A DNA stretch of 64,000 bases from Serendipita indica DSM 11827 (lineage: Eukaryota > Basidiomycota > Agaricomycetes > Sebacinales > Serendipitaceae): the NCBI GenBank assembly GCA_910890315.1, contig CAJVGD010000015.1:434001-498000 (forward strand), read 5' to 3'. The translations under genes were made by a program, and so were the position numbers. Below, piece after piece: positions 36,243-62,121 of this stretch. The notes beneath the pieces were generated by a model. That model searched no databases and was not told the DNA's origin. It saw only the letters and a list, made by a program, of their open reading frames with translations. Positions within the stretch are counted from its first letter, which is position 1; each line of letters opens with the position of its first letter.

Positions 36243-37764
36243 CTATGCGCTAGGGTGAGAGAGCGTCCGACAATCCTCGAGACAGCTCGAAGTAGGTAGG
36301 CTTATCGAATATGGAACATGGCCCGGCGTATCTGCCAGAGCGACCCCTTGTGCGACGTGGAGTACCGAGAGAGTGATCGACTCTTCCATTTCAACCCGGT
36401 TGGGGGGAAGCTGTATTGTTCCACCAAATCCATCCCAAGCAATCGTTGTGTATCCCGTTGCTCGACTGGATGCGACGATGGACTGGCGGAGCGAAAGAAA
36501 GAAGCGGCTGACAACGATACTCCTCAGCGCCATATTGCAAGAGTCTGAAAAGGATTTGAGACTCCATGGACAGAGAAGCCACTGAAAAATGTCAACGCTC
36601 TACGAATGTGCACACGAGAGGACCGTACCACGAGAGAACCCCATAGGCGAAGGAGAATTGCAACCTTGAAGAGAGCTTTAGCATTATTCCCTCCCCTCTA
36701 AGCAGGAACATTCTCACAGCAAAGTACGTCACACCGTCTCGATACAGACGGTCGAGGACAGGCAAGGCGACGCTATTGCCTTCTGAGAGGAGTATTGGTC
36801 TGGAGCGAAGAGCGTGCTTAATAAGAAGAGCAGTGGCGACAACCTCACACGGAAGCTACTTTCCTTTGAGCGCAGGCCTCGAGCGTGGAAATCAACATAC
36901 AGCACAGAGAAAGGTGGAGGCGACCATGAGGGTCGTATTCGGTGGCGGCGTCTGGGTAACACCGCAACCATGATCTAGAGCACCGACACGAGCTATTGAC
37001 TGTGAGCAAGAAAATAAAACAACAGGACCAGCAACGTACGAAGGAGTAGATAAAAGGCTATACAGGTCATGGGGATTTGAAAGAGGACATAGCCAGTAAA
37101 CACCCAGATAACAAGCAACCGTGACCTTTTGCTCCCTTGGTACAAAGCGCACACCCGCATGCAGTGCAGGGCTACATAGTATGGCATGGGCTGGTTGATC
37201 TGACCATGCGAGCAATACGCACCGGTGGAGGATACTGAGACAACTACTCGACATATTACAGCTCCCAAGGTAAAGTATCGACATCTGGAGACACTTAGAG
37301 ACGAACTAGTCGATGAGAAATCCTTACGCCTAGGGAATACATAGTCAGCCAGAGGACAGGTCGAAAAGGGAAGTCAATGATACCAATTTGGAAATGTCCC
37401 CATCAACGGGTTTTGCCCTGGTTGACTCAGATGGGATCAAACCTCAAAGCTCTAAGAACGTACGAAATAGGCCCAGTGGCAGGCCAATTGCGGGTAGATA
37501 TCGCGTCTATAAGCATTATGGCTGCCAAGATGTGCGACTTTGACCAATTACTGACGATGACAAAGATGGTGCGAACTATCCAACCCCCACCAATCTTCCA
37601 GAAGAATAGTCGCTGGACGAATGAGCAACGTTCATCCGACAGCATGTGACACTGACCTCTTCATCAACTGTGAGTAGGTAATCATAATAGTACGCCACGG
37701 CTCCAGCCACCGACACGTATTGAACGATGCGTGATGCCATCGCCGTCGCTATTGCGGAGCTCAT
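36243..37764 (-). CDS. DUF6533 multi-span membrane protein, array copy 1 (subfamily A)
   Basis: The ATG is at 37762-37764. Exons carry QYVSVAGAVAYYYDYLL (DUF6533 N-terminal span), LFFWKIGGGWIVRTIFVIV, RYLPAIGLPLGLF, LHCMRVCALYQ followed by a hydrophobic span, LDRLYRDGVTYFAV, and VVSRFFLSLRQSI with a 70-residue cytoplasmic-type tail. The family is basidiomycete-specific as far as I know, with about seven predicted spans; its function is unknown and receptor-like topology is inference. The tail motif GGTIQLPP groups it with copies 2 and 3. Introns were placed only approximately. Confidence 0.75.
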
Positions 37765-38494
37765 CACAAAGTAAACAGTCCACCTCCTTGCGGGTGACGG
37801 AATTGGCGAGGTTCAAGGTGCAACGAGCATCTGCATAGACTTGTCGCGTAACCTGTTCCACGCTCAAAGGTTGTAATCACAGCTCCGAGTACCTCGGCTG
37901 GCGCGGAGCGCCGTTCGTAATTTGAGTGGGCGGGTGGATGGGCCAAATAGTCCATTCTATCACTTAATTCAGTAACTTGCCTATCCGACGGAGGGTCTAA
38001 TTGCGATCAAGATGCTTACGACGCAGCATTGGCTGCATTGAGAATATAATAATACGCCGCTGACCTCGGACGTACATTGCTATTCTAATAGAACAGCGCA
38101 TTTGCAGGTGCTCGGTGTGACTTGATGGCGCAAGACAGGTCATGGTCGTGGCATGGTCACATCAAAATTAGCGATATCGAATCAAGAGTATGGTTCGCGT
38201 CACCAGGGAGGCTGCACGAGCGTTCCAACCTCAAAGATGTGCAAATATGACCGCTCCCATGGACGTCAGCCTGCTCTAATCCCAGCTAACTTGTTCATTA
38301 AAGCTACTTCCGAACACAATAGAGGCCAAGCATCCAGTCTATCCGAGTCCGAGATTGCTACAGGGAGCTCTATAGTGCCTTGGTTTACCTCCAGCTTTGC
38401 CGCGTAAGCTCGGTGGGCATTCAGATTATTGCGGATCGTTGCGTAAAGCTCATCTATAGCTCGTTTCAATAGTACATGAAAGCGTGTATAATGT
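37765..38494. other. Intergenic region between array copies 1 and 2
   Basis: No supported gene. Short frames on both strands (38153-38469) lack family features. Confidence 0.35.
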
Positions 38495-39987
38495 CTAGTC
38501 TGGGTCAGAGTGTGTACGGCAGAGCTCTAGGCCACTCGGATTGTCTCCGACAGGGCTATCCACCTCGGTCTGCTTGCGATAGATTGTAGACAGCCGTATC
38601 GAGTCACCGTTCATAGAACGCTGTGGTGGGAGCTGTATAGTCCCGCCGAGCCCGTCAATGGCAATGGTTGTGTGCTGGGCGATCCGACTCGACGCCACGA
38701 TCGACTTGCGGAGAGAGAGGAAGAACCGACTGGATACGGTGCTCCTCAGCGCCATATTACAAGAGTCCGAAAAGAATTTAAGACTCCAAGGGCAGACAAA
38801 CCACTTAAGCCCGCTGAGTCACTCGCAAAGACAGGGACGATAAGATCTTACCACTAGGCAACCCCATAGGCGGAGTAAAAATGCAATCTCGACGAAATGA
38901 TCAGCTGCATTAATCTTTTTACCCGGTAATACTTACAACAAAGTATGCTACACCATCACGGTATAATCGGTCAAGGACCGGCAGCGCGGCGCTATTGCCC
39001 TCCGAAACGAGCATCTGCCGGCATTTGAGGGCGTGTTTGACGGTAAGAACAATCACCAGAGTCTCGCATGGAAGCTATCTCGACTTGAGTGTGGATCTTT
39101 GGCCTTGAATCGACGTACGGCGCAAAGGAAGGTCGAGGCGACCATGTGCGCAGTACCGAATGGACGCCTACTAATGATATCGCAGCCATGGTACAGAGAC
39201 CTCACATGGGCTAGAATTACGCTGAGCGCGCATAATTTTATGTAAAGGGAACTTACGCAGGAGCAAATGGAAAGCGACGCAAGACATTGCGACTTGAAAG
39301 AGGACATATCCAGTAAAGACGGCAATCAGTACTCGTCTCACCTTTCTCCTCTCACGATACAAGGTGTACACCCGAAGACAGTACATGCCTTTACTTCGGT
39401 GAGCTAGGCGAATTGACCAAGTTGACCAATACGCACCGGTGGATGATATAGATACAATTACTCGACAGACAGCGTTGCCGAGGGTGATATAACGACACCT
39501 AGAGGGCGTTCATACGTGAAAAAAGACAATGGAGTTCATACGTCTGAAAGGGCGTCAGTACGCGAAAAACAAGTCGCGAGGAAAGCGCGTACTGGGTCTG
39601 ATAAATGTCCCACGAATGGTTTGTCCCTTTTTCAGCGAATAAGTAAGCTATAACCTCGGATCGTGTATTCGTAGGCTTACGAAGTAGACCGAGCGGCAAG
39701 CCAATAGCTGGCAGATATCGCGTCTACAAGCCATTACTTGCGAAACTAGCAGCTTTGCGAATGTACTCACAAGGATAAAGACTATACGGACGATCCAGCT
39801 GCCTCCAATTCGCCAGAAAAGTTGTCGCTAAAGGGACGACATAGTGAGCTAGTGTGGTCCACTTCCGCTTTATGCCCACCTCAGCGTCAATGGTGAGTAT
39901 AAAATCATAATAATATACCACTGCTCCAGAGACGGAGACGTATTGGGTGACGCGCGAGGCCATTGCCGTCGCCATTGCAGCGCTCAT
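38495..39987 (-). CDS. DUF6533 multi-span membrane protein, array copy 2 (subfamily A)
   Basis: Start ATG at 39985-39987. Recognised segments in order: QYVSVSGAVVYYYDFIL, RYLPAIGLPLGLL, YCLRVYTLYRERRK then a hydrophobic span (IAVFTGYVLFQVAMS), SEGNSAALPVLDRLYRDG, and SSRFFLSLRKSIV. The last exon shares TTIAIDGLGGTIQLPP with copies 1 and 3. The copy looks intact. Interruptions of frame between these segments fall where the paralogues also have introns. Confidence 0.75.
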
Positions 39988-40619
39988 ATTAATGCGCCCA
40001 CAGGTGAACAAGCCCAAGCGAGGACTTTATCTAGGAGCTCACGCGACTGATAAAAGACTGAAGAGGTGGAGTCCAAGCCGTGGCTACGGCTGACTATACC
40101 CCGTTTAGGCATAGGCCATACCCATCAGAGACTCAATGTCGTAATGTTGATTCCTGTGCGCTTCGACTGGCGGTTGATATTCGTTCTCAGAAGCTGCCAG
40201 GAGAAGAATTAGCCCCTCCGAATATTGATTTTGTTGACCTTGACGGAGAGTTGAACGGTCAGGGTCTAAACTTTTCTGTATTCGAAGCTGGGTCTATATG
40301 CCGCAAACCCTGGCAAGAATACTTCTCGGTGACAGTAATCGACTCCGGTGTGTTATATGGCGCGGGGCGTAGCGCGGCTGTTCGGGTGGTAACTGCCATC
40401 CCACAAGGTCGCACGCTTTCCAATCGAGACTAGGTCCCATCGAGTGAGTGAGCTGTCCTTGCGGACCTGTGATGGAATCGGCCGGCGAATTCAAGAGACA
40501 ACTGACAGAGAAGCCCAAATCCCAACAAATTGATGCGCTATCTCATGCTCAATCAGAAATGAATACTCTGTGATAGACAGGACTAAGAGTTTCGCCACAA
40601 AAGAGTGGGATCAAGCCAA
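39988..40619. other. Intergenic region between array copies 2 and 3
   Basis: A 117-codon plus-strand frame (40080-40433) is open but has no recognisable domain and no paralogue elsewhere in the array. I do not call it. Confidence 0.3.
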
Positions 40620-42075
40620 TTAGAACTGGTATTTACTCGTAGGAGGGATATCTTTCTTCTTGCTGCTTACAGTCGAGAGCTGCATTGCCTGACCCAGATC
40701 CTCGCTCTCCGCAGGCGGGAGCTCTATGGTTCCACCGAGACCATCAACGGCGATGGTTGTTGTGTATGGAGCTATACGAACGGAATCGGCGATTGACTTG
40801 CGGAGAGAAAGGAAAAAACGGCTGGCGACTATACTCCTCAGCGCCAGGCTACAAGAATCTGCGAAAGGTGCGAGGCTGCTTGGACAGAGAAACCACTAAA
40901 AACGGTAAGCCACAGATCGGAAGTATAGGCGACAGGAGATATACCACAAAGCAACCTGATATGCGGAGCAGAAATGCGACCTGCATGGGAGTTTGAACGA
41001 GGAATTTTCGCACGAACAGATACCTACGCCAAAGTACACGATACCGTCTTTGTAGAGTCGTTTGAGGATGGGCAACGCGGCGCTGTCAGCCCTCGGAGGG
41101 GAGACTCTGTCTAGACAAGACTGCGTGCCTGACAGTCAGAACGATGACTATTGTCTCGCACGGAATCTATTTCACATCAGTGCACCATTCGAGCGTGGAA
41201 TCGACGTACTGCACAGAGATAGCTGGACGCGACGACGAAGGAGGTATAAGATGGGGGTGCGCGGTTGATGATACAAGCACGGTTGACCGGGCCAATGCGG
41301 GCTTAACAGGCGTAAGTCCAGGAGGCTCTCATAGGGAGAATACTGACGCAGGAGCAGAGAAAGTGCGATGGAGGAGAGTACAAACTGGAAGGCGAGATAG
41401 GCGCCAAAACCTGCCATAAGGAGCCGCTGGGGCCCCTTCTTCTGTCGACATAGGGTATGTACTCTGAGGCAAAACATGGCTATCATTCTGTGAGTACAGG
41501 CTCTCAAATAGTAGGAGCGATGCGCACCGGTAGATGCTATGGACACCAATAACCGACATAGAATGTTTCCAAGTAAAACACCACGACATCTATATAGACT
41601 TAGATATGGATGGATTCAAGGGAAGATCCTACGTCTAAAAATAGTTGGTCAGGATTCAATCAAATTTGAGAAGGCGAACCAGGTTTGAGTTAAGCTCAAT
41701 GAACGGATTGAGACCTATGATTGGGGCGGAAATGAGACTCATTCGAGCAATGAGATTTGTCGGCTCACTAAGTAGACCGAGTGGCAGCCCAGCGAGAGGC
41801 GTATATCGTACCTGGTGAAGCCGTACTTAGTCAATGGTAGAGACCTTGGAAAATCACTGACAGCGATAAAGATTGTCCGGACGATCCAACTACCCCCAAT
41901 TTTCCAAAACAGTCGCCACTACAGAAAACAAACTAAGATTAGGACTTGATTCGCATTCTTTACTGACCTCGTCCTCCAAAGTAAGCGTGTAATCGTAGCA
42001 GTATGTGACAGCTGCGGCTACAGAAGTGTATTGGATGACGCGCGAGCTCATCCTCAGCGTTATTGCGAGTTCCAT
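40620..42075 (-). CDS. DUF6533 multi-span membrane protein, array copy 3 (subfamily A)
   Basis: Start ATG at 42073-42075. Segments: QYTSVAAAVTYCYDYTL, LFWKIGGSWIVRTIFIAV, RYTPLAGLPLGLL, MFCLRVHTLCRQKK plus a span (FGAYLAFQFVLSSIALSL), LKRLYKDGIVYFGV, and IVASRFFLSLRKSIAD. The tail again carries GLGGTIELPP and ends PPTSKYQF. The LLSEGNS part before LKRLYKDG has diverged to SPPRADS. Probably intact. Confidence 0.73.
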
Positions 42076-42714
42076 TATGCTAAGAGGAGGGAGTTAGAGT
42101 AAATAATGAGTGCCGTCCGGAGCCCACGGCGGCGCGAGGGATAGATGACGAGGGGCGAGGTGAGGACCAAGAGAGCTGAACGCTGTCTTGAAGGTTACAT
42201 GCCCGTCAGCGGTCAGAACGCAGACTTGGTCATATGTGGAAAGGTGCGAGCACAACGCTTTAGAGGCCGCAATGTCGCATGATGCGGTATGGGCCCGAGC
42301 TGATCGCATGATAGACGGAGCGGCCGCATGAATTTGCTTTTCTTTTGATCCGATTACTAGGATCTTCCTGTCTCGCAGATGAGCCCGTTTGAATATTACG
42401 GTATGTTGTCGATCTATTCCCTTACGTCTCTAGGTTGCTGGACCCTGCTGCGGTCAGCGGTGATGACCGGAGTCGTAAACGACCGTCTATTGCGATAATA
42501 TCTATCAACATCCATTCCCTGTCTCGATTATTCCACCTGCGCTTGCAACGCGAACCCAACTAGTTCTGGTTAGGTCTAAACTCGTCGCACGTCAGAACTT
42601 GGAGTTGGCCTCGCCGAATCAGGAGTCACCTATGTAGGTTTCTTCCATATGAGATACAAAAAAAGACTAGAAAGTTATACACGGTCCGGGTAGATACAGG
42701 GCCGGTCATACTGT
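42076..42714. other. Intergenic region between array copies 3 and 4
   Basis: No gene, repeat or shared promoter motif seen. This is the switch point from subfamily A to subfamily B. Confidence 0.35.
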
Positions 42715-44129
42715 TCATCTAGTCCGCGAGCTCATGTCTTTCGAACTTGTTGGGCCCATATCAGAGAGTCTGATATCCTCAGATGCCCGCGAATCAGGAT
42801 CGCGCGTCCTTGCAAGCGCTACGCTATACGTATCCACAAACTGAGAGCCCTCCAAGGCAGTGGAATGGCGGGTTTCAACGGGTGGTCTGAACACCAATTC
42901 CCGTAGGCCAAGGAAGAACCTAGTTGAGATCACACTGTTCAGACTATAGATCAGAAGGTCGGAAACAAATTTGAAATCCGAGGGTAATGTGAGCCACTGG
43001 AGATAGTGTCAACGGTGGTCTAAAATGACAAGTTTTTTCATTGGACTCACCACGATGGCACCAAAAAGGCGCAATCCAAAGGCGAGCTGATCTCGGACAT
43101 TAGCTACGTCCCCCATCGAATGAACATATCACACCAAAAAATAGATGGCGCCATCTTGATACATGCGTCGTAGAATTGGCATGGCGGCGGATTCGTGGTG
43201 TAATAAACGTTTCTGCTTTGCTCCTCTTGCATGCAGGTAGGTCGCGACCAGAATTACTACCTCGCAGGGGATCTTGCGAGAATTAAGACGGAGTGGTATA
43301 TTTACAAACGGACGTACCATGGATAAGTAGGATCCTATGACCATCTTGTATTGGTCTTTTGGTGGCGGGCCTATTAATACGCAAGTGGTCCTCCCAAATC
43401 TTACGAGAGCTACAGGATCTTCAGTACAGGTAGATATTTTGAATACTCTTACTCATGATGCTCGAGGTAGCTAAGGCTCCCATTACGACCTGGACAGCGA
43501 CGCTCAGATAAAATGACGATAAGATCAGGGCTTTCGCCTTCCATTCTTCGCGATATAATGTGTATATACGAAGACAGAATATTCCTGTAAAAGCTATAAC
43601 TTGATCTTTTAGCGAACAGGAAACCCACCCGTTGAAGATGCCGACATAGTGATCTGAGCCGTAACATTAATCACTTTAGACGCGCGACAGCTATGGATCT
43701 GTCACATTAGCTCGCACGAATAGGGATTTCACATACATCTATTGAGAGATTAGACCGAAAACGTGAGTAGGAGAAGGCGAACCTGATCCGAAAGATGTAA
43801 CCTAAACGGGTTCAATTCAATAAGGCCGATGGAGAGCCCGAGGATGGGGGCGTATCGAGTCTATTCGGCGTATGAGTCTCTCAACCACAAATTGGTCGGA
43901 TGTCGCACAAAAAGAAAGAGATATCTCCCAACTGGTGCACTCCGTGTCGTCCAAAAAAACTGAATCTAGATAGAAGTTGGTGATTAGACGAGTGAATTGA
44001 CTAGTAGACTCAAGTACGAACCTCTGCGGCCAACGTGAGTGCGAAGTCGTACAGATACACGGCTGCTCCGGCTATGGAGACATATTGGATGATCAGCAGC
44101 CTTTCCACGCGAGTTGCTATTGATTCCAT
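42715..44129 (-). CDS. DUF6533 multi-span membrane protein, array copy 4 (subfamily B)
   Basis: Start ATG at 44127-44129 (MESIATRVERL). Segments: QYVSIAGAAVYLYDFAL, IFCLRIYTLYREEWKA, PCEVVILVATYLHARGAKQK, MPILRRMYQDGAIYFLV, and VISTRFFLGLRELV. The subfamily B tail has LEGS.FVDTYS (here ALEGSQFVDTYS). Upstream similarity to the other B copies ends about 60 bp before the ATG, so this copy lacks the palindrome seen there. Confidence 0.75.
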
Positions 44130-44740
44130 GTCGCCAATGCTTGAACTCGCCTCGCTGGTCGTCCGGAGACGGAGAGGTCAAAGCTGAGGGCCAGAGCGGC
44201 CGTCTGGCGTCACGCCTCAGAGTTGCCTCGAGACCACCGAACACGCTGGCGCCGAGAAATGTCCGGAGAGTGGAGCCCTCGACAGGCACTGGGAGAACAG
44301 GGACACGATGAGACAAGTGACCAGCGTTCAGGGAGGAATTCGGACGGTGTGAGGAGTCGAGTGAAAACTCTTCTGGCTCAATCATCCATCTCCAGGGCGG
44401 TAAACGAGTCATTTATCGCGCAAATTCTAGGCAGATATCCACTCGAGCACGTCGTCGCAGGCGTCGGGGATGCTTCGCCACCTGGGAACATGTTGCAACT
44501 TTTCCCTAAATTCATGTTGCTCATAGGTACATAGTATATCGTAACCAATAGGGGTCTAGTAGAACAAACGAGTGAGGCTATCGATGCGAAGCCCTAAGAG
44601 AAAGCCGGAGGGTGCTTCCAAGGGCGTAAAAGGTAGTCGGTAAAGTCTATGCGGTAACGCTTGTAGATTGCATTATAGGCTACAAAATTGAGCAGAGAAG
44701 TTACACACAGTTCGGGTGGACACAGGGATGGTCATATTGT
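44130..44740. other. Intergenic region between array copies 4 and 5
   Basis: The first 60 bp resemble the region before the other subfamily B starts, then similarity stops. No gene called. Confidence 0.35.
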
Positions 44741-46154
44741 TCATGTAGTCAGCGAACAGCCACCTTCCGGGCCTCTTGGCGTTATGAAAGAGAGTCCTAT
44801 ACCGTCTCGTATACTAGGATCGGGGTTGCGCGTCATTGCGACCGGTAAGCTGTACGTATCGACAAAGAGCGAGCCCTCCAAGGTAGTGGGGCACTGCGTT
44901 TGAACAGTGGGTCTATGTACCAGTTGCCGTAGTCCGAGGAAGAATCTAGTCGAAACCACACTGCTCAGACTATAGATGAGAAAGTCGGAAACAAACTTGA
45001 GCTCTGCAGGGCACGCGAGCCACTGGATGTAAAGTTAGCATTGAGAAGCAATATGAAAAGATGTTGATCAGACATACCACGATAGAGCCACCAAGGCGCG
45101 TTCCAAAGGCGATCTGGTCCCAAACGTGAGCTGGCTTCTCCACCCAATGAACCCACTGTACCAGAAGATAGATGGCACCATCTTGATACATACGTCGTAG
45201 AACCGGTAAAGCAGCGGATTCACGACTCAAGAAGTGCTTTTGCTTTGCCTCTATTGCATGCAGATACGTCGCGACGAGAATCACGGTCTCGCACGGGAGC
45301 TTGCGAGTCATAAGAAGAGGTTTTATATTGGCGAGAGAGCGTACCACAGATAAAAAGCATCCCGCGACCAGTATGTGTAAGCCTTTTGGTGGCGGTCGAG
45401 CAAATGCGCAAATGGTCCCGCGAAACTCTATGATGGCTACAAATCTGTCAGTAAAAGTAGAGTGTTCCGAGTTTCCGTACTTATGAAACTCGAAATAGCA
45501 ACGAATCCGAGTGCGACCTGGACGGCGACGGCCAGATAGAACCACGCTAGCATTAGAGCCTTCATCTTCCATTTTTCCCTGTATAGAGTGCATATACGCA
45601 TGCAAAACATTCCTGTAACGGTTAAAATTACTTTCCTGAATGAGCGAGCAGCCCACCTGTCGAAGAGGCTGATATAGCAATCTGAGCCACGATTGTGATT
45701 ACTCTGGAGACCCGACATCTATATGGCTGTCATAACGACTCGGATGCCAGGATTTACACGTACGTCTATGGAGAGATTAGACCGAAAGCACGAACATGGG
45801 ATAACGGACCTGATCGGACAGATGGGCAACGAACGGATTTAAATCAAGAAGACCGGCTGAGAATCCGAGGAGAGGAGAGTACCGAGTCTATTATACCTAT
45901 CAGTTTCAACCACGGGTTAGTGATACAACGCACAAAGAGGAAGAGGTGTCTTCCAACCCATCCAATCCTTGCCCTCCAAAAGAACTGTATCTAGATTCAG
46001 GTTGTTGATTAGAATGTATAACCCGCTAGCGGACTAAAGCACGAACCTCCGCACCAAACGTGAGCGCCAAGTCGTATAAGTATACGACCGCGCCAGCTAT
46101 GGAGACATATTGGACAATTGTCATGATCTCCAGACGCGTGGTCATGGATTCCAT
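44741..46154 (-). CDS. DUF6533 multi-span membrane protein, array copy 5 (subfamily B)
   Basis: Start ATG at 46152-46154 (MESMTTRLEIM). Segments: QYVSIAGAVVYLYDLAL, RYSPLLGFSAGLLDLNP, MFCMRICTLYREKWKMKAL with the span FYLAVAVQVALGFVAIS, CAFARPPPKGLHILVAG, LPCETVILVATYLHAIEAKQ, LPVLRRMYQDGAIYLLV, and VVSTRFFLGLRQLV. The tail carries TLEGSLFVDTYSLP. This is the best preserved subfamily B copy, and its promoter has the palindrome at 46322-46340. Confidence 0.78.
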
Positions 46155-46724: not shown

Positions 46725-48168
46725 TCATTCGTGGGGATAGTCCGCATATGTCTCTCTCAAACGCTTTCCATGGGGTTTGAGTCTCGATAGACGAGGTAGA
46801 ATATGACGCGACCTTTTCGGCAGAGTGAAGGTGTCGGCCGTTGGCATGGACAACGACCCAGGCAGCGCGGCATTGGCACGCGAGATGGACCCGCGAAGCC
46901 TTAAGAAGAATCTGGAGGACAGGATGCTCGTGAGCGCGTAAATGCCATAGTCGGCAGAGGGCTTGAGGATGGCTGGCGCCTCAAGCCACTGTAAGAGTGG
47001 TCACCAATCCTGAAGAGAGTTCTGACAGATGCACCTACGACTATTGCGCCACACATCCTCAGGCTGACGGCAAGCTAGCCAATGTTAACCCGGCTATATG
47101 CAAGGGCGAGAGTGGTGCTTACTCTAAAGCATGCGGTTCCATCTCGATAAAGTCGTGTGAGGATGGGTAACGTGGCTGAGGCTCCGTCTAGTAAGTGAAG
47201 TCTCTTCGCGCAAACCGAGTGGGCGAGGGTTGCAAGTAGAATAACCATCTCGCATGGCAACTAAAGCTTGTAAGATAAGAAAAAGGGGGCGAGTATGCAT
47301 ACCATAGATAGGTACGAGCCTGCGACAATCTCGTGCAGGTGCCTTATGTCCCCAGTCGTGCCACAACGCCCATTTATGGAACAAGTGAGGGCTGTCTTGC
47401 GATAAACAGTAGAAAAGACACCGTGAACACTTACGAATGAGGAGTCGTAGCGCCATAATTCCCGACGGCTATAGCACTGAAGAAGCCGAAAGCAGTGATG
47501 AATAGAACAACTCGTCGCTCTCTGTGATAGAGCATGCAAATTCTGAGACCAAATATTGCTAGTAAAATGTTAGGCGTCGCGAATGAAGCCCCACATGAAC
47601 GGACCTGTTGTTGACAGGGAAAGCATGAATTGCAGAACAGTAGTGGCGGACCTTGCCAGTTTACATCTACACAAAGGTAAGAAAAGGGAGAATACGGTGC
47701 TCACTGTACTCACACCTATCGGAGAGTCAGCGATGTCATCGCATACGACGGAATCTGCAAACATTACTGGAGATAGGGGACGCAAACGAATCAACGAGTA
47801 GGAGGGGTAAACCGACTGTGGGCAAATATCGCGTCTGGTTGTCTAAATGAGTGCACTCTTCCAGCCGAGGTTGCACGCACGAAGAAGAACACGCGCTTTC
47901 CAACCCATCCACTCGAAGGAGTCCATATCAAGCCAACCTACTCACAGAGTGTCATCCTTGTCAACGCGATGACATTCGATAGAATTACCTCTGACGGAAG
48001 AGTGAGGGCGTAGTCGTACATAAACACAGTTGTGCCAGAAATAGCGGCATATTGGGCAATTCTTTCGTGTGATAGGACGCACCCATGGCCGCTTGACCTT
48101 CGGTGGTGAGGGAGGGGCCAACGATAGTTCCCGTTCCGCATGGTCGTCGGTTCATGCTCACTGTTCAT
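46725..48168 (-). CDS. DUF6533 multi-span membrane protein, array copy 6 (subfamily C), start unclear
   Basis: Segments: QYAAISGTTVFMYDYAL, RYLPTVGLPLLV, MPCEMVILLATLAHSVCAK, LPILTRLYRDGTACFRV, then QWLEAPAILKPSADYGIYAL and ILSSRFFLRLRGSISR; the stop is at 46725-46727. It groups with copies 9, 10 and 11 by the SRFFL.LR.SIS ending and the short tail. The ATG at the place where copy 9 starts is out of frame here; the in-frame ATG at 48166-48168 adds about 25 unrelated residues. The copy may have lost its proper start or use another 5' exon. Confidence 0.65.
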
Positions 48169-49058: not shown

Positions 49059-50426
49059 CTATGAAAGAGCGTTTGATAATTTGGATGCACCGGAATCAAC
49101 ATTGCGCGTCCTTGCCATGGGATAGCTATACGTGTCGACAAACAGCGAGCCCTCTAAGGAGGTGGTATGGTGCGCTTGAACGGTGGGTGCGGGTACCAAT
49201 TGCCGTAGTCCCAAGAAGAACCTAGTCGAGATGACACTGCTTAAACTGTACATGAGAGGGTCGGAGACAAACTTGAGGCCAGAAGGGCACGCGAGCCACT
49301 GCGCATAATTAGCAGTGACCTCGAATAACGAAATTCTAATTGGACCCACCACGGTGGCAGCGGCAAAGCGCATTACGAAGGCAAGCTGGTTCCAAAGGTT
49401 AGCCGAATCCTACCTCTGGATCAACCCACCATACCAAGAAATAAATGGCACCGTCTTGATACATCCGTTGTAGAATTGGCAAGGCGACTGACTGGTGGCT
49501 CAAAAAATGTTTTTGCTTCGCTTCCCTCGCATGCAAGTAGGTCGCGACTATAATCACGATCTCGCAGGGGAGCTCAAGAACCTTAGGACAGAGTTATAGA
49601 GCTGTAAAGTGAGCTCACCGCTGACAAAATGCATATTGCGACCATGGTGGGTAGGTTTTTGGGTGGCGGACGCGAGAATGTACAAGTAGTTCCGTAGAAT
49701 CCTACGAGGGCTACAGGATTTCAGCACAAGTGGGAGTTGACAAATTTCATACCTTTGATGCTCGAAATTGCAATACCACCGGTTACGACCTGGAACGCGA
49801 CACTTGAATAAAAGCACGAGAGGATCAATGCCTTTGTCTTCTTTTTCTCGCGATACAGTGTGCATATACGAAGACAAAACATTCCTGTAAAGGTTATAAT
49901 TGCCTCTTTAGATGGGAAGTGGCCGACCTGTTGAAGAGGCTGACATGGCGATCTGAGTAATGACAGTGGTTACTCTGGAGACCTGACACCTATAGAGCTG
50001 CCACAATTGTGCGCGCATACAGGAAATTCACATACGTCTGTCGAGAGATCAGACCGGGAGGCTGAGCGTGAGATAGCGAACCTTATCAGACAATTGTGCA
50101 CTGAACGGGTTCAATTCGAGGAGAGCGACGGAAAGCCCAAGGATGGGAGAGTAACGATTCTGGTCCACCTGTGAATCTCAGCGACGGATTATTCAGACGA
50201 CGCACAAAAAAGAAGACGTATTGTCCGACTCGTCCACTCCTTGTCGTCCAAACAAGCTCGGTCTAGATTGGAGTGGGGAATTAGTTTGTTGCATTGGCCA
50301 TCAAATTAAATTACCAACCTCCGCCCCGAACGTGAGCACCAAATCGTATAAATACACGATTGTGCTGGCGATGGAGACATATTGGACGATAAGCATGTCT
50401 TCCAACTTCCTCGTCATCGATTCCAT
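49059..50426 (-). CDS. DUF6533 multi-span membrane protein, array copy 7 (subfamily B)
   Basis: Start ATG at 50424-50426 (MESMTRKLEDM). Segments: QYVSIASTIVYLYDLVL, RYSPILGLSVALLELNP, MFCLRICTLYREK, HQSVALPILQRMYQDG, QWLACPSGLKFVSDPLMYSL and SVISTRFFLGLRQLVP, with tail SLEGSLFVDTYSYP. The intron before the QWLACP exon (donor GTG|gtgggt) is clear. The promoter palindrome lies 167 bp upstream. Confidence 0.77.
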
Positions 50427-50879: not shown

Positions 50880-51445
50880 ACTATCAGCTGGAGCATAACG
50901 CTGAAGAAATGGAAAGCAGTGGTAACTAAGATACTACGTCGCTATCTGTGTTAACTTGAGCGCATTCTGAGACTGCGTATTGCTCGCTCGGGCGCGATGT
51001 CAATGCTCTACAGAGATTCGACGCCTGTAGAGTTGTCATAAATGTGCGCATATCCGGAGATTCCGCGTACATTTAACGAACAGTCAGAATAAAGGCTCGG
51101 ATGCGGGATAGCGAACCTGAGTGGATAAATGAGCGGCGGATAGATTCAATTCTAGAAAGCCGATAGGAACGCCAAAGACAGGAGAGTATCGCGTCTTTCT
51201 CTCTGGTCAGCTTCAATGGACGAGACGACGCACGAAGAGGAAAAGCCATTTCCCGATGCGTCCACTGTTTGCAGCGCAAATGAATTCCGTCTGGGTTTCA
51301 ATTGGTTATTTGGTGAGTTATCCGCTAGAGCACAAACCTCCGCACCCAACGTGAACACCAAGCCGTACAAATAAACGACTGCGCCAGCTATGGAGGCATA
51401 GTGGACAGTCATCGCATCTTTACGACGCACTATTACTGACTCCAT
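50880..51445 (-). pseudogene. Truncated DUF6533 gene, array copy 8
   Basis: Start ATG at 51443-51445, with a subfamily B N-terminus (HYASIAGAVVYLYGLVF, then a WKL/FFVRR-like segment and YSPVFGVPIGFLELN). It retains the region up to about 51000. The remaining part to about 50900 resembles the region around the third span of subfamily C genes (compare 47500-47560), and all later exons are missing. The palindrome upstream is kept. It looks like the product of an unequal exchange between a B and a C copy followed by decay. Confidence 0.6.
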
Positions 51446-51613: not shown

Positions 51614-51965
51614 CCAACAAATAGATGTGGTCGAGCCCTGGAACGAGGAAAATAGACCCAAGGCCAGACCTATCCTTCCTTTATTGACTCGGCTTTCCTC
51701 GCCTCTATCGAGACAAGTCGTTCAAGAAACTTATTCGGAGTGACGCTTCATCTCCGAAGTAGTAATGGAGCCGAGACGTCCCTTGTTACAAGCGGATAAA
51801 GATCTCCCCAGAATAGCAGTGACTTACCATATCTGTATATATGGGCGTAGGTGTCACGAATGCATCGCCGTCCCAGTGGCGAACGTTGGCCAGGTTTCGG
51901 TGATAGAGATATGATAATGCCAAATAGTGACCACGCATATTAGTATACAAAGGAAATGAACGGAA
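51614..51965. other. Intergenic region between array copies 8 and 9
   Basis: No gene or repeat seen. Confidence 0.35.
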
Positions 51966-53972: not shown

Positions 53973-55344
53973 TCACCGTTTTATTTCTGGTTCGTGGCTA
54001 CGTTCTCTGATTGTATTCCGTATCAAGGGAGGAGATAGATTCGGATTCGCGAGTGCAGAGACGTCTGCGGTAGCCATAGTAAATGGTCCAGAACGAATAA
54101 TTCGACCTCTTGAGATGGATTCGCGAAGCTCTAGGAAAAACCTGTATGAAATGATGCTAGTCAGGGCGTAGACGATATAGTCGGCGGAGAATTTGAGGTT
54201 ATCCGGAGCCGCAAGCCACTTGACAAATAGGTTTTCAGTGAACAAGGATCCTCCTTTGGCACCCAGACATACCATCAGTGCGCTACAGAGCCTAAGAACG
54301 AGGGCAAGCTGGCGACAATCAGTCTTCAGAGGTGCAGGGGGGATCGATTGCTTACTACAAAGTAAGCCATTCCGTCACGATAAAGTCGCGTCAAGATAGC
54401 CAAAGAAGTAGAACCCCCTTCTAGTTGATGGAGGGCTCTAGTCCGATTTGAATGGACCAAGGTGGCGATCAGGATAATCACCTCGCATGGTATCTAACGG
54501 TCTTTAGTTAGAGTTAGGTCGTAGAAGATTCCCACCATCGATAGGTATGTGCCCGCAACAAGTCTATGCAACATATGCGGTATCGTTTCCGCTAGGTAGG
54601 TGCAGTATCCATCAGCGGAGCCGGTGATGGCTACTGTGATATGAGCAAGGTAGAGTAGATGTCTGGTGATACGCACGAGCGATGATTGCAAATGTCATAG
54701 CCCCGAGGATCGTCTGCAATGCAGCACTGACGAAATATGAAACAGCGATGAATGAAGTAATTCATCGTTCCTCATGATAAAGAGTGCATATTCTGAGGCA
54801 GAAAATGCCTGGATTGGCATGAGAGAGTAATACACAAGTGTACCACGAAAACGAACCTGTCGTTGAGAGGGAGAGGGTAAGCCCGAAGAAGATGCCACCG
54901 ACTCTTATAAGCTTGCACCTACAAGATAGTGAGCGTTTATGACCAAGACTCTACTGTACTCACCCCTGTTACGACGTGAGTAGAACGGCCAGGTTTCGCA
55001 GTGGCGACGCACATTGCTCGACATTTTGGATCCGAATTGATCAAAGAGTATGATAGGAAAACCGATGATGGGAGAGTATCGAGTCTGATTACTTGAATGA
55101 GCCGTCGCTCAGTGCCAACGTCGTACGCACGTAGAAGAAGACAAGTTTCCCGAGCCAACCACCCCATTTGGTCCACGTAAGAGTAATCTACTCGATGTTG
55201 ATTGGCCTCGGTTGGCGAGATTCGCGTCAAATGACCAACCTCAGAGGGTAGGGTAAGGGCATAATCGTATAAAAACACAGTGGTAGCAGCGAAAGCCGTA
55301 TAATCCAGGCATCTCTCGTACCAGAGCGTCTCGAGTGATTCCAT
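53973..55344 (-). CDS. DUF6533 multi-span membrane protein, array copy 10 (subfamily C)
   Basis: Start ATG at 55342-55344 (MESLETLWYERC). Segments: DYTAFAATTVFLYDYAL, RYSPIIGFPIILF, IFCLRICTLYHEER, PCEVIILIATLVHSNRTRA, LAILTRLYRDGMAYFVV, KWLAAPDNLKFSADYIVYAL and IISYRFFLELRESISRGR. Close to copy 9 in every segment, so the two probably arose by recent tandem duplication. Confidence 0.75.
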
Positions 55345-56299
55345 GAAGATCCGAGACTCGCGAGCGAGCACGGCGGGCACGGGCGGGGCCAATGAGTGAG
55401 ACGATTAGAACCTTGCACGAATTTGCGGATCATTTTTTTGCTATTTTGACATTGTACCTTTTTTGATGGGCGTTGGACATGGAGATTTGCATTGGCGCTC
55501 CGTCGTCCGCTGCTGATTGAGGGCTCGCAATCGACCGCTGCGCTACGGGAATGCCAGCGTTGCGAACTCGCAGAGAGCGGGTATTAAACTAGCCATTGTC
55601 CGCCGTCCTCATTTCGGGTGGCTGTTTAAGATTGGACCCGACCGCCACCATCCTTGGACAAGCTACTCTGACCTAATCATTACCACACCCGAGTTATTCC
55701 CTAAAGGTTTTGGGCCATCAATCCCCCTTGAAGACGTAATCTTGGAGGCGCTAAGTCGCGTTCGCCCCGGCACGTCAATATCCCTAGGTAAGCTTGAATG
55801 GTCGGGACAACCCAAGTTTACAATCTGCCGAGATCTCCGTCCGAAGAGATGAAGATTTGCATGTAGAATGAATCGCGTCCCTAGCACATGGTCAGCCACA
55901 CCTTGGTGTCGCTCGGAGGCAACCGAATCAATTACTGCGGCTGGAAGTGATCAGTCCGAGCTCCCGAAATGCACGGTCAATTCGTGAGGCTAGACCTTGC
56001 TCTAGGCTCAGCCCCTACCGATCATGTCGGGAACACCTAGCGTGCTCGGAGAGCCACTGCTCGCAGAAGACCTCTTGATAGGTCTCGTCTCGTCAACACC
56101 TAGGACTCTTTTCAATTACGACATTGTATCAAGTTAGGCTACTCCGCCGAGTGGACAACATCCGATGGCCGCGGGAAGCCTAAATACTAACAGACAAAAG
56201 GCTTTAATGAGTCTTATAGGCGTAGTTTCACGAATACATCCCAACCCCCATCAAACCCTCACCCTTACTGTCTTACGCTCTCCGAGCATCCTTGCTTTT
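55345..56299. other. Divergent intergenic region between array copies 10 and 11
   Basis: Only divergent promoter space in the array. A 111-codon plus frame (55517-55852) is open but unrecognised. The palindrome is not present. Confidence 0.35.
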
Positions 56300-57704
56300 A
56301 TGACCTCCCCTCTCATATTAGCCCTCAATGTCCAAATGAACAAATACATGGCCGTAGCCGGCACAGCCGTGTATGTGTATGATTCCCTGCTTACATCCTC
56401 ATCAGAAGTAGGTTGGTGCTTTCATGGACGCGTCTTGCTAAGCTGGGCCGAAAGGTTGATCTCATGTGGACGAGTTGGAGTGGCAAAACTGCGAAAACCA
56501 TCTACTTTTACGTGGGTATAACGTCTGATTGTCCGTCCAATTGGCTGATCCATGCCCAGACAAAGTACGTTCCGATGGTTGGACTCCCAATTCACTTCGT
56601 CGCTAATTTCAAAGCTGAATTATCGCCAATAGTGCGTCCTAGTCATACAGTGATGTGCAGCCATAATCATCTCGGCAGACGTTAGCCGCCGTACTTCTCA
56701 CGACGTGTCTCCCTAACCAGCTGAGCGCAGATGCAAATCTGCAATCGTCATTGGTCTTGCCCTTGCAGTTACCTTGCGCCTAACATCGACCGGTTCGTCA
56801 TCTGTGCATTAATCAACCGTGCCGAACTTGCAATCTAGCCATTTTCGTAATGCGCATCTGCACGATATACTGCGAGCGGCGGCGCATTGTCGTGCTCGTT
56901 GTCGGAGCATTCGCCGCTTGTACGATATTACAATTCGGCTTAGCAGCAAGCGGCTTATCGATGGTGTACGGTCAGTCCATTTGATATCTCCAAGTGTCCC
57001 ATCTTACACAAACATTACCTCATCACCATACAGCTGGAGCTACCTCAAATGCTGGAAAGTGCACGTTCGCCCCACTACAGCCTCGGAAATTCCAGCAGGT
57101 TGTCGCAAGCTCATATCTTTCACTAGTATGCCTATCACTCTCGCTCTCCTACTGTTGTCAATAAAGAGTAGATGCCGTGCGATACAGTCATCCTGGTAGC
57201 CACGTTAATCCATGCCGTCAACTCGCGGCATCTCCATGCTCTAGGCGGAGGTTCGGCGGCATTACCCGTACTCACCCGGGTATATCATGATGGCATGGCC
57301 CACTACGCGGTGCGTATATGTTCTTGCTATCTCGTCCATCTCACCTCGAATAGGTTACACTCGCCCTGAGACTTTGGGGAGCATTCTCGGTGCGTCTATC
57401 CTGATCAAATAACCTTTTATTAACACATATGTAGGTGATTATTCCTCCCACTCCTTATAGACTCGCACCCGAGGTGTTTGTCTTGGCCTTTACCAGCATT
57501 GTGGCATCGCGGTTCTTCCTTGGACTTCGGAAATCCATCTCGCAAATGTCAAGGCAGGCCCTTGGACTTTCAGAGACCGGTATAGATACCTTTCTCCTGT
57601 CCCGAGTTCCTCCCAGCCGCTCGCTAGCGTGGACTACGACTACGTCGACAGCGGATGTCGCACCCACACCTCGGTCACAACCCAGGGTCGGTTCACCGTA
57701 GGAT
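56300..57704 (+). CDS. DUF6533 multi-span membrane protein, array copy 11, inverted (subfamily C)
   Basis: Plus strand, start ATG at 56300. Segments: KYMAVAGTAVYVYDSLL, then across a GT-AG intron DLMWTSWSGKTAKTIYFYV, KYVPMVGLPIHFV, IFVMRICTIYCERR with the span VVLVVGAFAACTILQFGL, MPCDTVILVATLIHAVNSR, LPVLTRVYHDGMAHYAV, and IVASRFFLGLRKSIS. It keeps the DUF6533 second-segment pattern (EVDLMW) more faithfully than the other copies, and could be closest to the ancestral form. It is the only full copy in the opposite direction. Confidence 0.75.
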
Positions 57705-57912
57705 ACACCCAATCCACTTTCGTGTAGTACAACTTAGTTACTCTCTTTCCGCTCAGGATTTGGAGACCATTCCACTACGATGTATCATCATTCTCCCTCT
57801 GATCTTTGAGCATGACTTGACCCCTAATTACTGCTCAACATGCCGGGACAGATGAGCCACTGCAAACTTTGAACCCGCTCACGATCACCCACCGAGACGA
57901 TTGCCATTGAAA

Positions 57913-58934
57913 ATGCCAAAACAGTTTACATTTGTTATAGGTATGATGTATGTGATCTCTAAATCACCATTATCAACCTCGACGTATACTCAGAGCACAT
58001 GGAGGAGGACGAGGGACACTCACTGCCCAAATGGGTCCTTCTCGAGTACAAGCACATGCTCAGTCTCGCTGGGCAAGGGAATAAAGTCTGCTTTACGCAC
58101 CTCTCTCAATCATCATGCGCCGCGATCCAAAAAGGATTTGAATCTGTAGCCAATTCAGGTAAGGTTCGTATGTGGTCGAGCATATGTCATTCTAATCCGT
58201 GTATATCTCGCTAGTTGGGACGCAAAAGTCGTCAGAAGCCACATTCGAGGCGACGAGCATTCCATCCTCGAATACATGAAGCTACAAGGTGTCCCGATGA
58301 ACAGAGTTTGCCTTCTGGATCCGAGAGGAAGCAAAGAGTTATCACCAGAAGACGGTAGCGAGTTTGAGTGGTTCCTTTTCGGGGTAGGTGTTTGCGAACC
58401 CTCGCTCCTTTCCCTGATGGTTAGACAGGGTATCCTTGGCATGTCGGGTTCCATGATCCGCAAGTGCTTCGTCTGATACTTGTTAGGCGATGATCCACCT
58501 CGGGATCGCACAGGAGAGCTCCGTGCCCTCGGGTTCGCTGGACGGCGACTGGGTCCAATCCAGATGACAACAGATACAGCTCTTGGCGTCACCAAAATGA
58601 TAGTTCAGGATCAAAGTATGTTTCTCCTTCTTCTGGTGCCCTTCCTTCGTATCTCATCTGGTGGCCGTTAGTGACAATGGAGACAATTCCGTTTGTGGTC
58701 GGTCACACTTCCAGCAATGTGGAGCAAATCCGTTAATCCGACGTACAGGATCACCCTACAATCAAATTCTCAAAGACAGAGAGCGTCGAGATGCCATTTA
58801 GTGGGTAGCTTCTGTCGCTGTCTTGCAGGCGTTGACACTATTCAGGGTATATTATAAAGGAAGGAGAGCCACTACTACCTGGAGGTATGAAGCAACACCT
58901 TTACGATGATTTGAACAGAGGATTCAACGATTAG
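57913..58934 (+). CDS. SFM1: SFM1-like SPOUT protein-arginine methyltransferase
   Basis: Eight exons (57913-57940, 57994-58158, 58229-58383, 58429-58438, 58487-58615, 58672-58697, 58749-58800, 58846-58934) give 217 residues in frame; yeast Sfm1 is of similar length. Signature parts: EHMEEDEGHSLPKWVLLEYK, RVCLLDPRG, FLFGGILGDDPPRDRTGEL, QMTTDTALGVTK, and ESVEMPFR. Sfm1 uses SAM to methylate an arginine of ribosomal protein uS3; the fold is a trefoil-knot SPOUT domain. Exon 4 is only 10 nt and sits inside the conserved GGILGDDPP motif; the intron after it has GC-AG ends. The acceptor of exon 3 is uncertain (58228 fits the frame; 58218 does not). The gene is embedded in the DUF6533 array and its last exons are duplicated at 62122-62310. 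Confidence 0.87.
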
Positions 58935-59444
58935 GGTCGGGAAACTGACTCTATCGTCGAAATAGAGAAAGCAAAAGAATGGTGAATAGGGTTCTGTACT
59001 TTATTGTACCTCACTACCTCAATCCACCTCTTCTATTCTCAGACCATCCTCCACCACCCCAGTCGCGACCTCATCATTGAGAAATCGACGTTCTCGCTCC
59101 CTAATGCGATACGAACTTGTGCCCGGACTGAGTACAACGGATAGGAATTCCATAGGAACAAGCAGACCAGCTCTACGAGTGCCGGTAGGTTCTCACGCAC
59201 TTCCCGACCGCGAAGAATGCTACCCTCTTCGTCTTTGTAAGGCATGAGCCCACATATGGCCAAAAATTCTCGGAAAAGGTCTGGAGAGATCGAGATAACG
59301 ACTGTTCCAAATAACCAGGCGGCAGAATGCTTCTATGGCAAACAGGCTTTTAGGAGCCTATCCACGTCTCCCGCAGTTCTCTGTTGTGCTTGGGACAGAG
59401 TGTAGATCTGACATCATCAGCGAGAGCAGTTTGAACGCGTCTGT
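58749..59444. repeat. Left copy of a 0.7-kb flanking duplication
   Basis: Holds the last two SFM1 exons and a reversed 3' fragment of the gene at 62388-64000. It matches 62122-62846 with clear divergence and several indels. The two copies flank 2.7 kb that contains array copy 12 and a relic. Confidence 0.75.
59039..59444 (-). pseudogene. 3' fragment of the right-edge gene, duplicated
   Basis: Reads GLMPYKDEEGS, REVRENLPALVEL, FLWNSYPLYSVRAQV, paralleling GLMPYEDEDSA, WEVRENLPAFAAL and FLWNYHPLCSVWAQV of the gene ending at 62388. It has no 5' part and the frame is disturbed near 59280-59330. A non-functional duplicate. Confidence 0.7.
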
Positions 59445-59540
59445 AGAGCGCGCTGATGATGATCGTTGGAGCCATCGAACGGCCATTGGTCACGCTAATA
59501 GTGGGATCTGGGTTTATTTCTTCTATATAAGGTACAATTC

Positions 59541-60997
59541 TCAGTGGCAATCAAACTGAGTCATAATACCGCCTAACACATGCTCGGCGTCTTTGGGTAA
59601 GCAGGCGTCTTTCGAGCCTCTTGGTGGCATGACAGAGAGATTGACGCCTTCAGACAAATGCGGATGGGTATTGCGCGACTTCGCAATGGGTAAGCTGTAC
59701 GTATCGACGAACAGTGAGCCTTCTGGGGTTGGATGGTGAGTTTGAACAATTGGTCTCGGTACCAGCCGCCGCAGTCCAAGGAAGAATCTAGTTGAGACTA
59801 CGCTGCTCAGACTATATATTAGAAGGTCGGAGACAAATTTGAGGTCGGGAGGGAACGCGAGCCACTATGTAAACAGTTAGCGGCGAGATCAAAGGACAAA
59901 ACGTTTGCCAGACTCACTATAATCGCGCCACCAAGACGCATTCCAAAGGCAAGCTAGTGTCAAAGTTAGTTTGCCTGTTCCTCCGCTCAGTATGACCGTA
60001 CCAAGAAGTAGATTGCGCCATCTTGGTACATACGTCGTAGAATTAGCAACGCGGCGGATTCGTGATTCAAAAAATGCTTCCGCTTTGCCTCGGTTGCATG
60101 CAGGTAGGTCGCGACCAGAATCAGAATTTCGAATGGCAGCTCGCGGATCTTAAGATGAAGCTGTCTAGTTTCAAAATAGGCTTACCACGGACAGAAAGTA
60201 TCCTGCGACCATTCGATGCAACTCCTTTGGTGGCGGTCCTGTAAACGCGCAGACGGTCTCACGGAATCCCATGAGAGCTGCAGGATTATTAGTACAATGT
60301 GGAATTTTGCGCTTGTCGTACTTATGGCACTTGAAATGGCAATGGCTCCAGTTACGACTTGGATGATGACACTCAGATAGAAGAACGCTAGGATCAGAGC
60401 TTTCGTCTTCCATTTTTCCCGATATAATGTGCATACACGAAGACAGAACATCCCTGTAAATGTTGTTATTGTCCGTTTAGACGAGTCACCAGCGCACCTG
60501 TTGAAGAGGCTGACATTGCTATCTGAGCAATAATGGTGATCACTCTGGAGGCCTGACACCTACAGAGCTGTCACATTAACTCACATGTGTAGGGAACTTC
60601 ACGTACGTCTATTGAGAGATCAGACCGAGGAGGTGAGCACGAGAAAGCGAACCTGATCGGACAGACGGGCAGTAAACGGGTTCAATTCAATGAGTCCGAG
60701 GGAAAGCCCAATGACGGGAGAGTATCGAGTCTATTGTACGTGTCACTTTCGACCACAAGCCAGTTAGACGACGCACAAACAGGAACAGATACCTTCCGAT
60801 GCGTCCACTCCTTTTCATCCAAAGAAACTGCGTCTAGATTCAAAGCGGTGTTTGGACTAGTCAGTTGAGTAGTACGGTAATGCACGGACCTCTGCACCAA
60901 ACGTGAGCGCGAAGTCGTACGAATACACGACCGCGCTAGCGATCGATACGTATTGGACAATTTTTATATTTTCCAGATGCGTCGTCAGCAGTTCCAT
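59541..60997 (-). CDS. DUF6533 multi-span membrane protein, array copy 12 (subfamily B)
   Basis: Start ATG at 60995-60997 (MELLTTHLENI). Segments: QYVSIASAVVYSYDFAL, RYSPVIGLSLGLIELNP, MFCLRVCTLYREKWKTKAL with a hydrophobic span, AFTGPPPKELHRMVAGYFLS, LRRMYQDGAIYFLV and VVSTRFFLGLRRLVP; the tail has PEGSLFVDTYSLP. It is closest to copies 5 and 7. It lies between two copies of a 0.7-kb block that normally joins SFM1 to its neighbour, so it arrived there after SFM1 was in place. Confidence 0.77.
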
Positions 60998-61001
60998 CTC
61001 G

Positions 61002-61849
61002 ACACCGCTGGGACCAGGTTTGCTGGTTATCCAGAGACGGATGGGTCTAAGCTCGGTTATGTTGCTCTGACGAAATGACAAGATCCCGTAAAGAGCCATG
61101 ATTGTAGCTGCCATCCAATTGGTCTATTTCTTTTCACGCCAGGGCCAAGTACCCTAAAATAAGCCGACAGTGTCGGCTGTCGCTCACCAACAATGATGTC
61201 AGTTCTGGACGGCTCCTAATGCAAGGACGAGGAGAAAGGGACTCACTCGAATGACAGAGTTACTCAGGTAGAACGGGAACTGACTCAAATGGGTTCGGTT
61301 TGTGATATCCGAGTGAAAAATCCATAGGGCTCGACCATCTATACCCCAAGCAGTGATAACGCCGGGGCACGGGATATGCATCGAACAGATTCAAAGCTCC
61401 GTATATCGACATCAACTCGGAGCCGCCGTCGTGGCGCCAAGATCTGTCCAATCCGTTACGCTTAGGCAAAAAACCCTCCATAACAGGAGCGGATCCAACT
61501 TCTACACAAGTTTTCCCCTATAAAAATGTGATCAATGTCGGTCTGAAGGTGCGTTTTGTAGATTACTGGCCCGTGCTAGGAAGCAACAGTGAAAAATAAA
61601 GTCGAAGATGGCCGTTTATGGCGCTCGAGTTTACTCACAAATATACATAGTCATTTCATTTCTTGATAAATCCACCCGGGTCGGGGCCGTGAACTTGGTT
61701 CAGTCGTAGTTAGGCCCAGACTCGCGGGATTTGTCGCCGAACTGCAAGTCAGGCGCTGCTGGACTGTAGTAAATCCATGCTGACAGATGCAAATATTTCT
61801 ATTATAAGATATAAAAGACCGAGTGGAGAATAGTACACGGGCCGGGTGG
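61002..61849. other. Promoter of array copy 12 and intergenic space
   Basis: Includes the palindrome at 61162-61178. No gene seen in the rest. Confidence 0.4.
61162..61178. promoter_or_regulatory. Palindrome, array copy 12 promoter
   Basis: Arms AGCCGAC and GTCGGCT around AGT, 165 bp upstream of the copy 12 ATG. The outer bases of both arms changed together relative to copies 5 and 7, so pairing or symmetry is kept. Confidence 0.6.
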
Positions 61850-62040
61850 ATATGAAGTCAGCCATAGTGTCTATCTAATCCGAGTGCAGACATCCTTCGA
61901 GCTTTTTGATACACGACTGACAGTATAGTACCATCAGACACCCTCGGATTGCGATTGCACGTTATTGCCGTGGGTAGGCTATAAGTATCAACGGACAACG
62001 AGCCCTCCAGGGTGGCCATTGATAGATCTTGTAAGACCTA
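61850..62040 (-). pseudogene. Last-exon relic of a subfamily B DUF6533 gene
   Basis: Reads TLEGSLSVDTYSLPTAI with flanks like the C-terminal tails of copies 5, 7 and 12. No other exon remains. It ends next to the duplicated SFM1 fragment. Confidence 0.6.
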
Positions 62041-62121
62041 ATAGAGTGGTTCCCTCATAATGACCGATGAACGAATACATAGCCTCCGGATTCAGTGGAA
62101 GGAGTATTATTTCAGATCCAA

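Follow-up and report, generated by a model that had tools for sequence, protein, structure and literature searches.

What do the tandemly repeated membrane-protein genes of the locus described here encode, how did their array arise, and how are their transcripts joined? The locus lies in a stretch of 64,000 nucleotides (nt) from the basidiomycete Serendipita indica DSM 11827 (contig CAJVGD010000015.1, positions 434,001 to 498,000 of the forward strand), which we refer to as the window and within which all positions are numbered. Our reading, to which we give a probability of roughly 0.55, is that the array is an old tandem DUF6533 (SNB1-type) family shaped by gene birth and death, that its readable copies would encode receptor-like plasma-membrane proteins with seven spans, and that their transcripts would be joined through an exon of two nucleotides.

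Self-comparison of all stop-to-stop frames revealed repeated exon-sized pieces between 36.2 and 62 kb. Exon borders were set by hand, with three copies read by eye and the copies then aligned within each group. These exon models place 11 copies with all exons and two truncated relics within about 26 kb (36243-62136). When eight copies were used as tblastn queries (E ≤0.01), with the modelled genes masked with margins of 400 and 60 nt, the only matches outside the modelled genes were the two relics. The copies fall into groups A, B and C, which follow one another along the window as A A A B B C B b C C C B and then a relic, where b is a truncated B copy and the last C is inverted; ten of the 11 all-exon copies are on the minus strand. 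Both the tandem arrangement and this order had been given in a preliminary description of the locus and are borne out by the exon models and tblastn. Its count of at least twelve genes holds if relics are included, as the array has 11 copies with all exons and eight with open frames.

Each gene model has 10 or 11 exons, one of which, in ten copies, is the predicted 2-nt exon. The B and C copies have ten exons, and the A copies have one extra intron inside exon 3; in A3 the two pieces so produced total 78 nt, as long as the undivided exon 3 of B. Apart from the junction of exons 3 and 5, where the 2-nt exon is proposed, these structures are observed. Open reading frames were found in A1 (36243-37764; 11 exons, 348 amino acids (aa), open given the 2-nt exon), A2 (38495-39987; 336 aa, open only when splicing passes over the 2-nt exon candidate at 39542-39543) and six copies of ten exons each: B4 (42715-44129; 328 aa), B5 (44741-46154; 328 aa), B7 (49059-50426; 314 aa), C9 (51966-53355; 321 aa), the inverted C11 on the plus strand (56300-57701; 321 aa) and B12 (59541-60997; 342 aa). 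The remaining three all-exon copies are broken: A3 (40620-42075, minus) by one additional base in the exon at 41028-41166, C6 (46725-48141, minus; start codon uncertain) by an exon at 47435-47558 that is 8 bases short of the usual 132, and C10 (53973-55344, minus) by one stop codon inside the exon at 54677-54808. These breaks may be sequencing errors. The relics, both on the minus strand, are b8 (51108-51445), which retains only the first exons, and a B-type tail exon found by tblastn (61864-62136), so that five of the 13 units are broken or truncated. An earlier A1 model of 353 aa, which used an upstream acceptor, was replaced by the 348-aa model with the 2-nt exon; this was a choice, since four other readings exist. 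The older model, which differs only near the junction of exons 3 and 5, was used in the tree, the eight-row alignment, the hydropathy and omega runs and the Pfam scan of eight proteins. Related minus-strand frames at 59039-59332 and 62391-63266 flank B12; they appear to be copies of another small gene duplicated inside the array. The frame at 62391-63266 had no Pfam match.

All 11 all-exon copies match PF20151 (DUF6533), as the preliminary description had proposed. Their scores of 35.2 to 49.3 bits, three of them for N-terminal pieces, exceed the gathering score of 24.1 bits. E-values were 1.1e-8 to 7.6e-13 for the eight open copies (1.3e-8 for the 348-aa A1 and 1.5e-10 for A2) and 5.4e-13 to 1e-12 for the N-terminal pieces of the broken copies A3, C6 and C10, while a 36-aa piece of b8 had no Pfam match. 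Viral and prokaryote contigs gave 63 and 48 pattern matches, respectively, none of which was confirmed as a relative.

Literature searches by DUF6533, PF20151 or IPR045340 returned one functional study and one domain listing, the latter in a Ganoderma comparison (PMC8955403). The functional study concerns SNB1 (Snowball) of Coprinopsis cinerea, a DUF6533 (IPR045340) protein with seven predicted spans and its N end outside; deletion of snb1 leads to undifferentiated fruiting bodies, and SNB1 is required for their patterning (PMC10949477). DUF6533 is therefore not wholly without known function, and the remark in the preliminary description that none is established needs correction. PF20151 is described as basidiomycete-specific, and the SNB1 family as having one to three copies in most Agaricomycetes and four or five in Psathyrellaceae (PMC10949477). 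The array proteins share the Pfam domain with this family and, probably, a topology of seven spans with an outer N end and an inner C end. They differ from it in number, with 11 all-exon copies and two relics in 26 kb.

The array copies are old. In a tree of the exons, groups A (support 100/100) and C (100/99) are clades, whereas the four B copies are an unresolved remainder. Of the three subfamilies originally proposed, A and C thus stand as supported clades and B as a distinct remainder rather than a demonstrated clade. Identity of exon DNA, excluding the tail exon, is 71-75% in B, 61-68% in A, 48-66% in C and 42-51% between groups, and synonymous divergence within B is 0.88-1.18. The listed window repeats of 60 nt or longer reach at most 86% identity between array copies, along an 80-nt stretch. 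Neither these repeats nor the synonymous divergence in B gave any sign of recent exchange or conversion. The group order had been taken to indicate repeated unequal exchange; recent or continuing exchange is not supported by these values, while old duplication and rearrangement must have built the array, and the order of the groups fits such long-past events.

Within this old family, purifying selection acts between paralogues. Among the four B copies, omega was 0.265 in the core, 0.253 in the spans, 0.375 in the outer loops and N end, 0.206 in the inner loops and 0.488 in the tail, and pairwise core values between B copies were 0.14-0.25. The fast-changing tails noted in the preliminary description are evident here. 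Over eight copies, omega was 0.203 in the core, 0.192 in the spans, 0.327 in the outer loops and 0.142 in the inner loops; these values rest on saturated synonymous sites, which weakens them as support for our reading. Model M2a gave no gain over M1a (likelihood ratio 0, no class with omega >1) for 313 codons of the four B copies on three trees, a comparison of low power. The positive selection in outer loops that had been suggested as a check on a repertoire role was thus not seen among these four sequences. Identical copy number and purifying selection across isolates had been named as evidence against such a role; here purifying selection is seen between paralogues within one stretch of one genome.

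The proteins look like seven-span membrane proteins with the N end outside and the C end inside. At least six hydrophobic spans were found in all eight open copies; fewer than six in most copies had been named beforehand as a result that would refute the preliminary proposal. Hydropathy gave seven segments in B4, B5, B12 and C9, six in B7, A2 and C11, and eight in A1. In the three copies with seven placed spans, lysine and arginine are in excess in the inner loops compared with the outer loops (B4, 22 vs 10; B5, 19 vs 7; B12, 22 vs 7), which fits an outer N end. Only two cysteines are invariant in the eight-row alignment (C83 and C156, numbered as in B5), and their equivalents are present in all 11 exon translations, including those of the three broken copies. 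C83 is at the start, or top, of span 3 and C156 is in the loop before span 5, both facing outwards in the predicted topology. Many G-protein-coupled receptors (GPCRs) have a conserved disulphide between these same two places. In their probable seven spans and outer N end, and in both cysteine positions, the array proteins resemble class A GPCRs.

Several observations weigh against a receptor-like, seven-span reading. Hydropathy missed span 7 in B7, A2 and C9 and span 1 in C11; the seven segments of C9 result from a split span 4 together with the missing span 7, and the eighth segment of A1 sits in its tail. Differing from class A GPCRs, the array proteins have no detected sequence similarity to them, and the [DE]RY and NPxxY motifs are absent from all eight open copies. 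No Pfam GPCR family was matched by the eight open-copy proteins, the revised A1, the three broken pieces or b8. A profile of the eight proteins searched against the PDB matched no solved GPCR at E-values up to 10; its only match was to a riboflavin uptake protein (E 0.14, 55 profile positions). A further comparison is provided by the numerous DUF6534 seven-span proteins of Agaricomycotina, which a machine-learning study put forward as a new fungal GPCR class (PMC12842992). Like the array proteins, with their probable seven spans, these occur in large numbers in Agaricomycotina and lack known function; they differ in belonging to a separate Pfam family, and their GPCR status is itself a prediction (PMC12842992). 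DUF6534 was not matched by the eight open-copy proteins or by five further proteins and pieces at E-values up to 1.

The junction between exons 3 and 5 is where the gene models need most explanation. In B and C, the usual end of exon 3 is in phase 0 and exon 5 begins with the last base of a codon, so direct joining would break the frame. We enumerated GT/AG solutions from exon 3 to exon 5 under two schemes: one intron of 40-120 nt, or a pair of 40-90 nt introns enclosing an exon no longer than 30 nt. A 2-nt exon bordered by a preceding AG and a following GT (AG/NN/GT) was available at a matching place in all four B copies, all four C copies and A3, and no other arrangement recurred at corresponding positions across the whole set of eight B and C copies. 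If the additional intron of the A genes is permitted, a single 2-nt-exon solution exists for A1 and one for A3, and readings lacking the 2-nt exon number four in A1 and none in A3. Ten of the 11 copies would keep their frame through a 2-nt exon with these borders. The predicted exons on the minus strand are GC in A1 (37328-37329), AC in A3 (41633-41634), AT in B4 (43737-43738), AC in B5 (45764-45765), GT in C6 (47714-47715), AC in B7 (50036-50037), GG in C9 (52971-52972), GG in C10 (54964-54965) and AC in B12 (60607-60608), and that on the plus strand is AC in C11 (56679-56680). In relic b8, the AG ahead of this place is gone.

The introns around the candidate exon are of ordinary size. They measure 43-54 nt, compared with 42-63 nt (median 47) across ten models with 92 introns in total, a set that leaves out A2 and of which 20 are the flanking introns themselves. 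The intron before the 2-nt exon has one constant length per group: 44 nt throughout the four copies of B and 47 nt throughout the four of C. In C this holds even though mean identities of C introns (45-55%) are barely above those of shuffled introns (41-47%). B introns are 54-64% identical (46-50% when shuffled), and intron 3 of B, at 73%, is the highest of nine. A table of intron identities from a lenient alignment was dropped as uninformative, as shuffled introns scored 75.5%. When the gaps were shuffled, AG/NN/GT with room on both sides arose in 1.2-4.8% of trials per copy, and it is present in ten of ten real gaps. Multiplying the per-copy shuffled fractions of just the four C copies gives about 4 in a million; the summed figure of 10^-15 overstates the case, because it assumes that the copies are independent and preserves nothing but base composition. 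The motif CTNAY occurs within the final 35 nt of the intron preceding the 2-nt exon in 9/10 copies and of the intron following it in 6/10, compared with 47/81 other introns and 27% of shuffled ones. The last eight codons of B exon 3 have 4, 3 and 6 variable sites by codon position, weak support for this exon running to its proposed end. If the 2-nt exon is skipped, translation of the ten copies carrying it would first meet a stop between residues 81 and 260. An exon-border pattern chosen after viewing the copies had six matches in the window (five in array copies and one at 34080), with 0.68 expected, and was not used further. From the frame, the borders and the conserved place, we consider a 2-nt exon between exons 3 and 5 the most likely arrangement.

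Against this stand copy A2 and a range of alternative joins. A2 has no solution with the 2-nt exon and one without it, through a 94-nt intron that skips the candidate; it is one base shorter than A3 in the preceding exon, and including the 2-nt exon would cut it at residue 95. Each B and C copy also has four to nine frame-keeping readings with one intron. Those common to all four B copies use introns of 116-118, 83-85 and 56-58 nt, the last of normal length, and all four could also accommodate a 6-nt exon that uses the same acceptor; a reading of 115 nt exists in A3. A single intron could thus join exons 3 and 5 with no 2-nt exon at all, which we regard as unlikely. Its best B candidate would extend exon 3 by 27 nt (nine codons) to a GTCTRA donor within intron 3, pair this donor with an acceptor lying 8 or 9 nt ahead of exon 5, and account for intron 3 being the most alike of the nine B introns. 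The sequence CGGTCTRATCTCTC, kept in intron 3 of all four B copies (43744-43757, 45771-45784, 50043-50056 and 60614-60627, minus strand), could serve as a branch-point signal under the 2-nt-exon reading or as the donor site under this one-intron reading. The nine added codons have 6, 5 and 5 variable sites by position, compared with 40, 31 and 71% in B coding exons; this flatness is a weak argument, because 4-7% of nine-codon coding blocks are equally flat. The main reason for preferring the 2-nt exon is that, in our enumeration, neither the shared one-intron readings of B nor the 6-nt exon has a counterpart at the matching place in the four C copies. A1 and A3, moreover, have their own 2-nt solutions, and a single intron leaves AG/NN/GT at a fixed place in ten copies unexplained.

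Exons of this size have some precedent. Among the matches listed for microexon terms, we found no report of a 2-nt exon in a basidiomycete, and broader searches were too wide to show absence; one paper reportedly concerns a Trichoderma microexon (PMC11121469). Microexons appear as a mapping option in two basidiomycete papers (PMC3990503, PMC4014442), and P450 genes of Phanerochaete have exons down to 6 bp (PMC1184071). A 1-nt exon backed by reads was described in Fusarium CYP621A genes, in a paper that also mentions known exons of 2-5 bp from Arabidopsis, Drosophila and humans (PMC12940212). The Fusarium case resembles ours in that an ultra-small exon was inferred from frame, borders and intron length and is conserved over many genes. 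It differs in being 1 nt long, found in orthologues and read-backed, while ours is 2 nt long, found in paralogues and predicted from sequence.

How might such an array work? Under our reading, gene birth and death would have left the eight readable, three broken and two truncated copies. In splicing, the upstream intron would be removed first, leaving two added bases beside a new donor site, and the second intron would follow. Each readable copy would then yield a receptor-like protein with seven spans, N end outside and C end inside, presumably in the plasma membrane, where a disulphide from the top of span 3 to the loop before span 5 may hold the outer face. The conserved inner loops (an RxCTLY-like segment following span 3, and LPxLxRxYxDG linking spans 5 and 6) could contact an inner partner, possibly a G protein, and the fast tail might tune trafficking or regulation. 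Signalling and any ligand are conjecture. A bolder version, which we think improbable, is that DUF6533 is an unrecognised class of basidiomycete receptors whose 2-nt exon predates the split of A, B and C. The codon of the 2-nt exon stands just before the conserved cysteine of span 3, and skipping the exon shifts the frame to an early stop, so it could act as an on/off splice switch. If so, inclusion would give the full receptor, and A2, which is open on skipping, would be reversed.

Other explanations of the array differ in what they make of its size and its proteins. The array could be a fast-evolving recognition repertoire, either chemosensory or for self/non-self recognition; the preliminary description had suggested a chemosensory-like or surface-recognition one. 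Thirteen units, five of them broken or truncated, and outer loops laxer than inner ones (0.375 vs 0.206 in B and 0.327 vs 0.142 over eight copies) are in keeping with this; the lack of a positively selected class among the four B copies (a test of low power on few sequences) and of any sign of recent exchange speaks against it. With little support beyond copy number and the laxer outer loops, we find a repertoire possible but doubtful. Somewhat less probable still is that the proteins are seven-span small-molecule transporters or channels, with copy number following the range of substrates. The family profile does match the riboflavin uptake protein, but non-significantly and over just those 55 positions. 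The authors of the SNB1 study left transporter, channel and receptor all possible, and stated that transporters and channels usually have more spans (PMC10949477). The outer cysteine pair fits receptors. That the array is decaying and largely unexpressed we consider very improbable: three of the 11 all-exon copies are broken and two relics accompany them, but eight frames are open and the core omega between B copies is low.

Other features of the window lie at lower positions than the array. Two adjacent plus-strand frames at 3037-6687, one with NACHT matches (PF05729, PF24883) and one with a long WD40 run (14 stretches), are probably one NLR-type gene. At the end of the WD40 run, 6605-13431 looks like a young Ngaro/PAT-type retrotransposon. 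It has split direct repeats that are 100% identical (6605-6729 with 7089-7213, and 6822-7090 with 13163-13431), and its minus-strand frames carry motifs that look like those of reverse transcriptase, RNase H and tyrosine recombinase; the three frames scanned had no Pfam match. Three further stretches stand out (1-1879, 14722-19406 and 21455-22696), with F-box matches at 844-1530 and 21455-22696. Pieces within 1-1432 have copies about 17.6 kb away that are 68-83% identical, and 14722-16381 is related to them.

If the conserved 2-nt exon is real, automated annotation would be wrong at the start of span 3 in this array and perhaps in family members from other sources, and the exon would offer a tractable case of how the spliceosome handles an exon too short for recognition. 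The cysteine pair provides a simple handle for testing the receptor idea. SNB1 controls mushroom patterning, and the open, broken and truncated copies of this array represent natural variation with which the function of the family may be probed.

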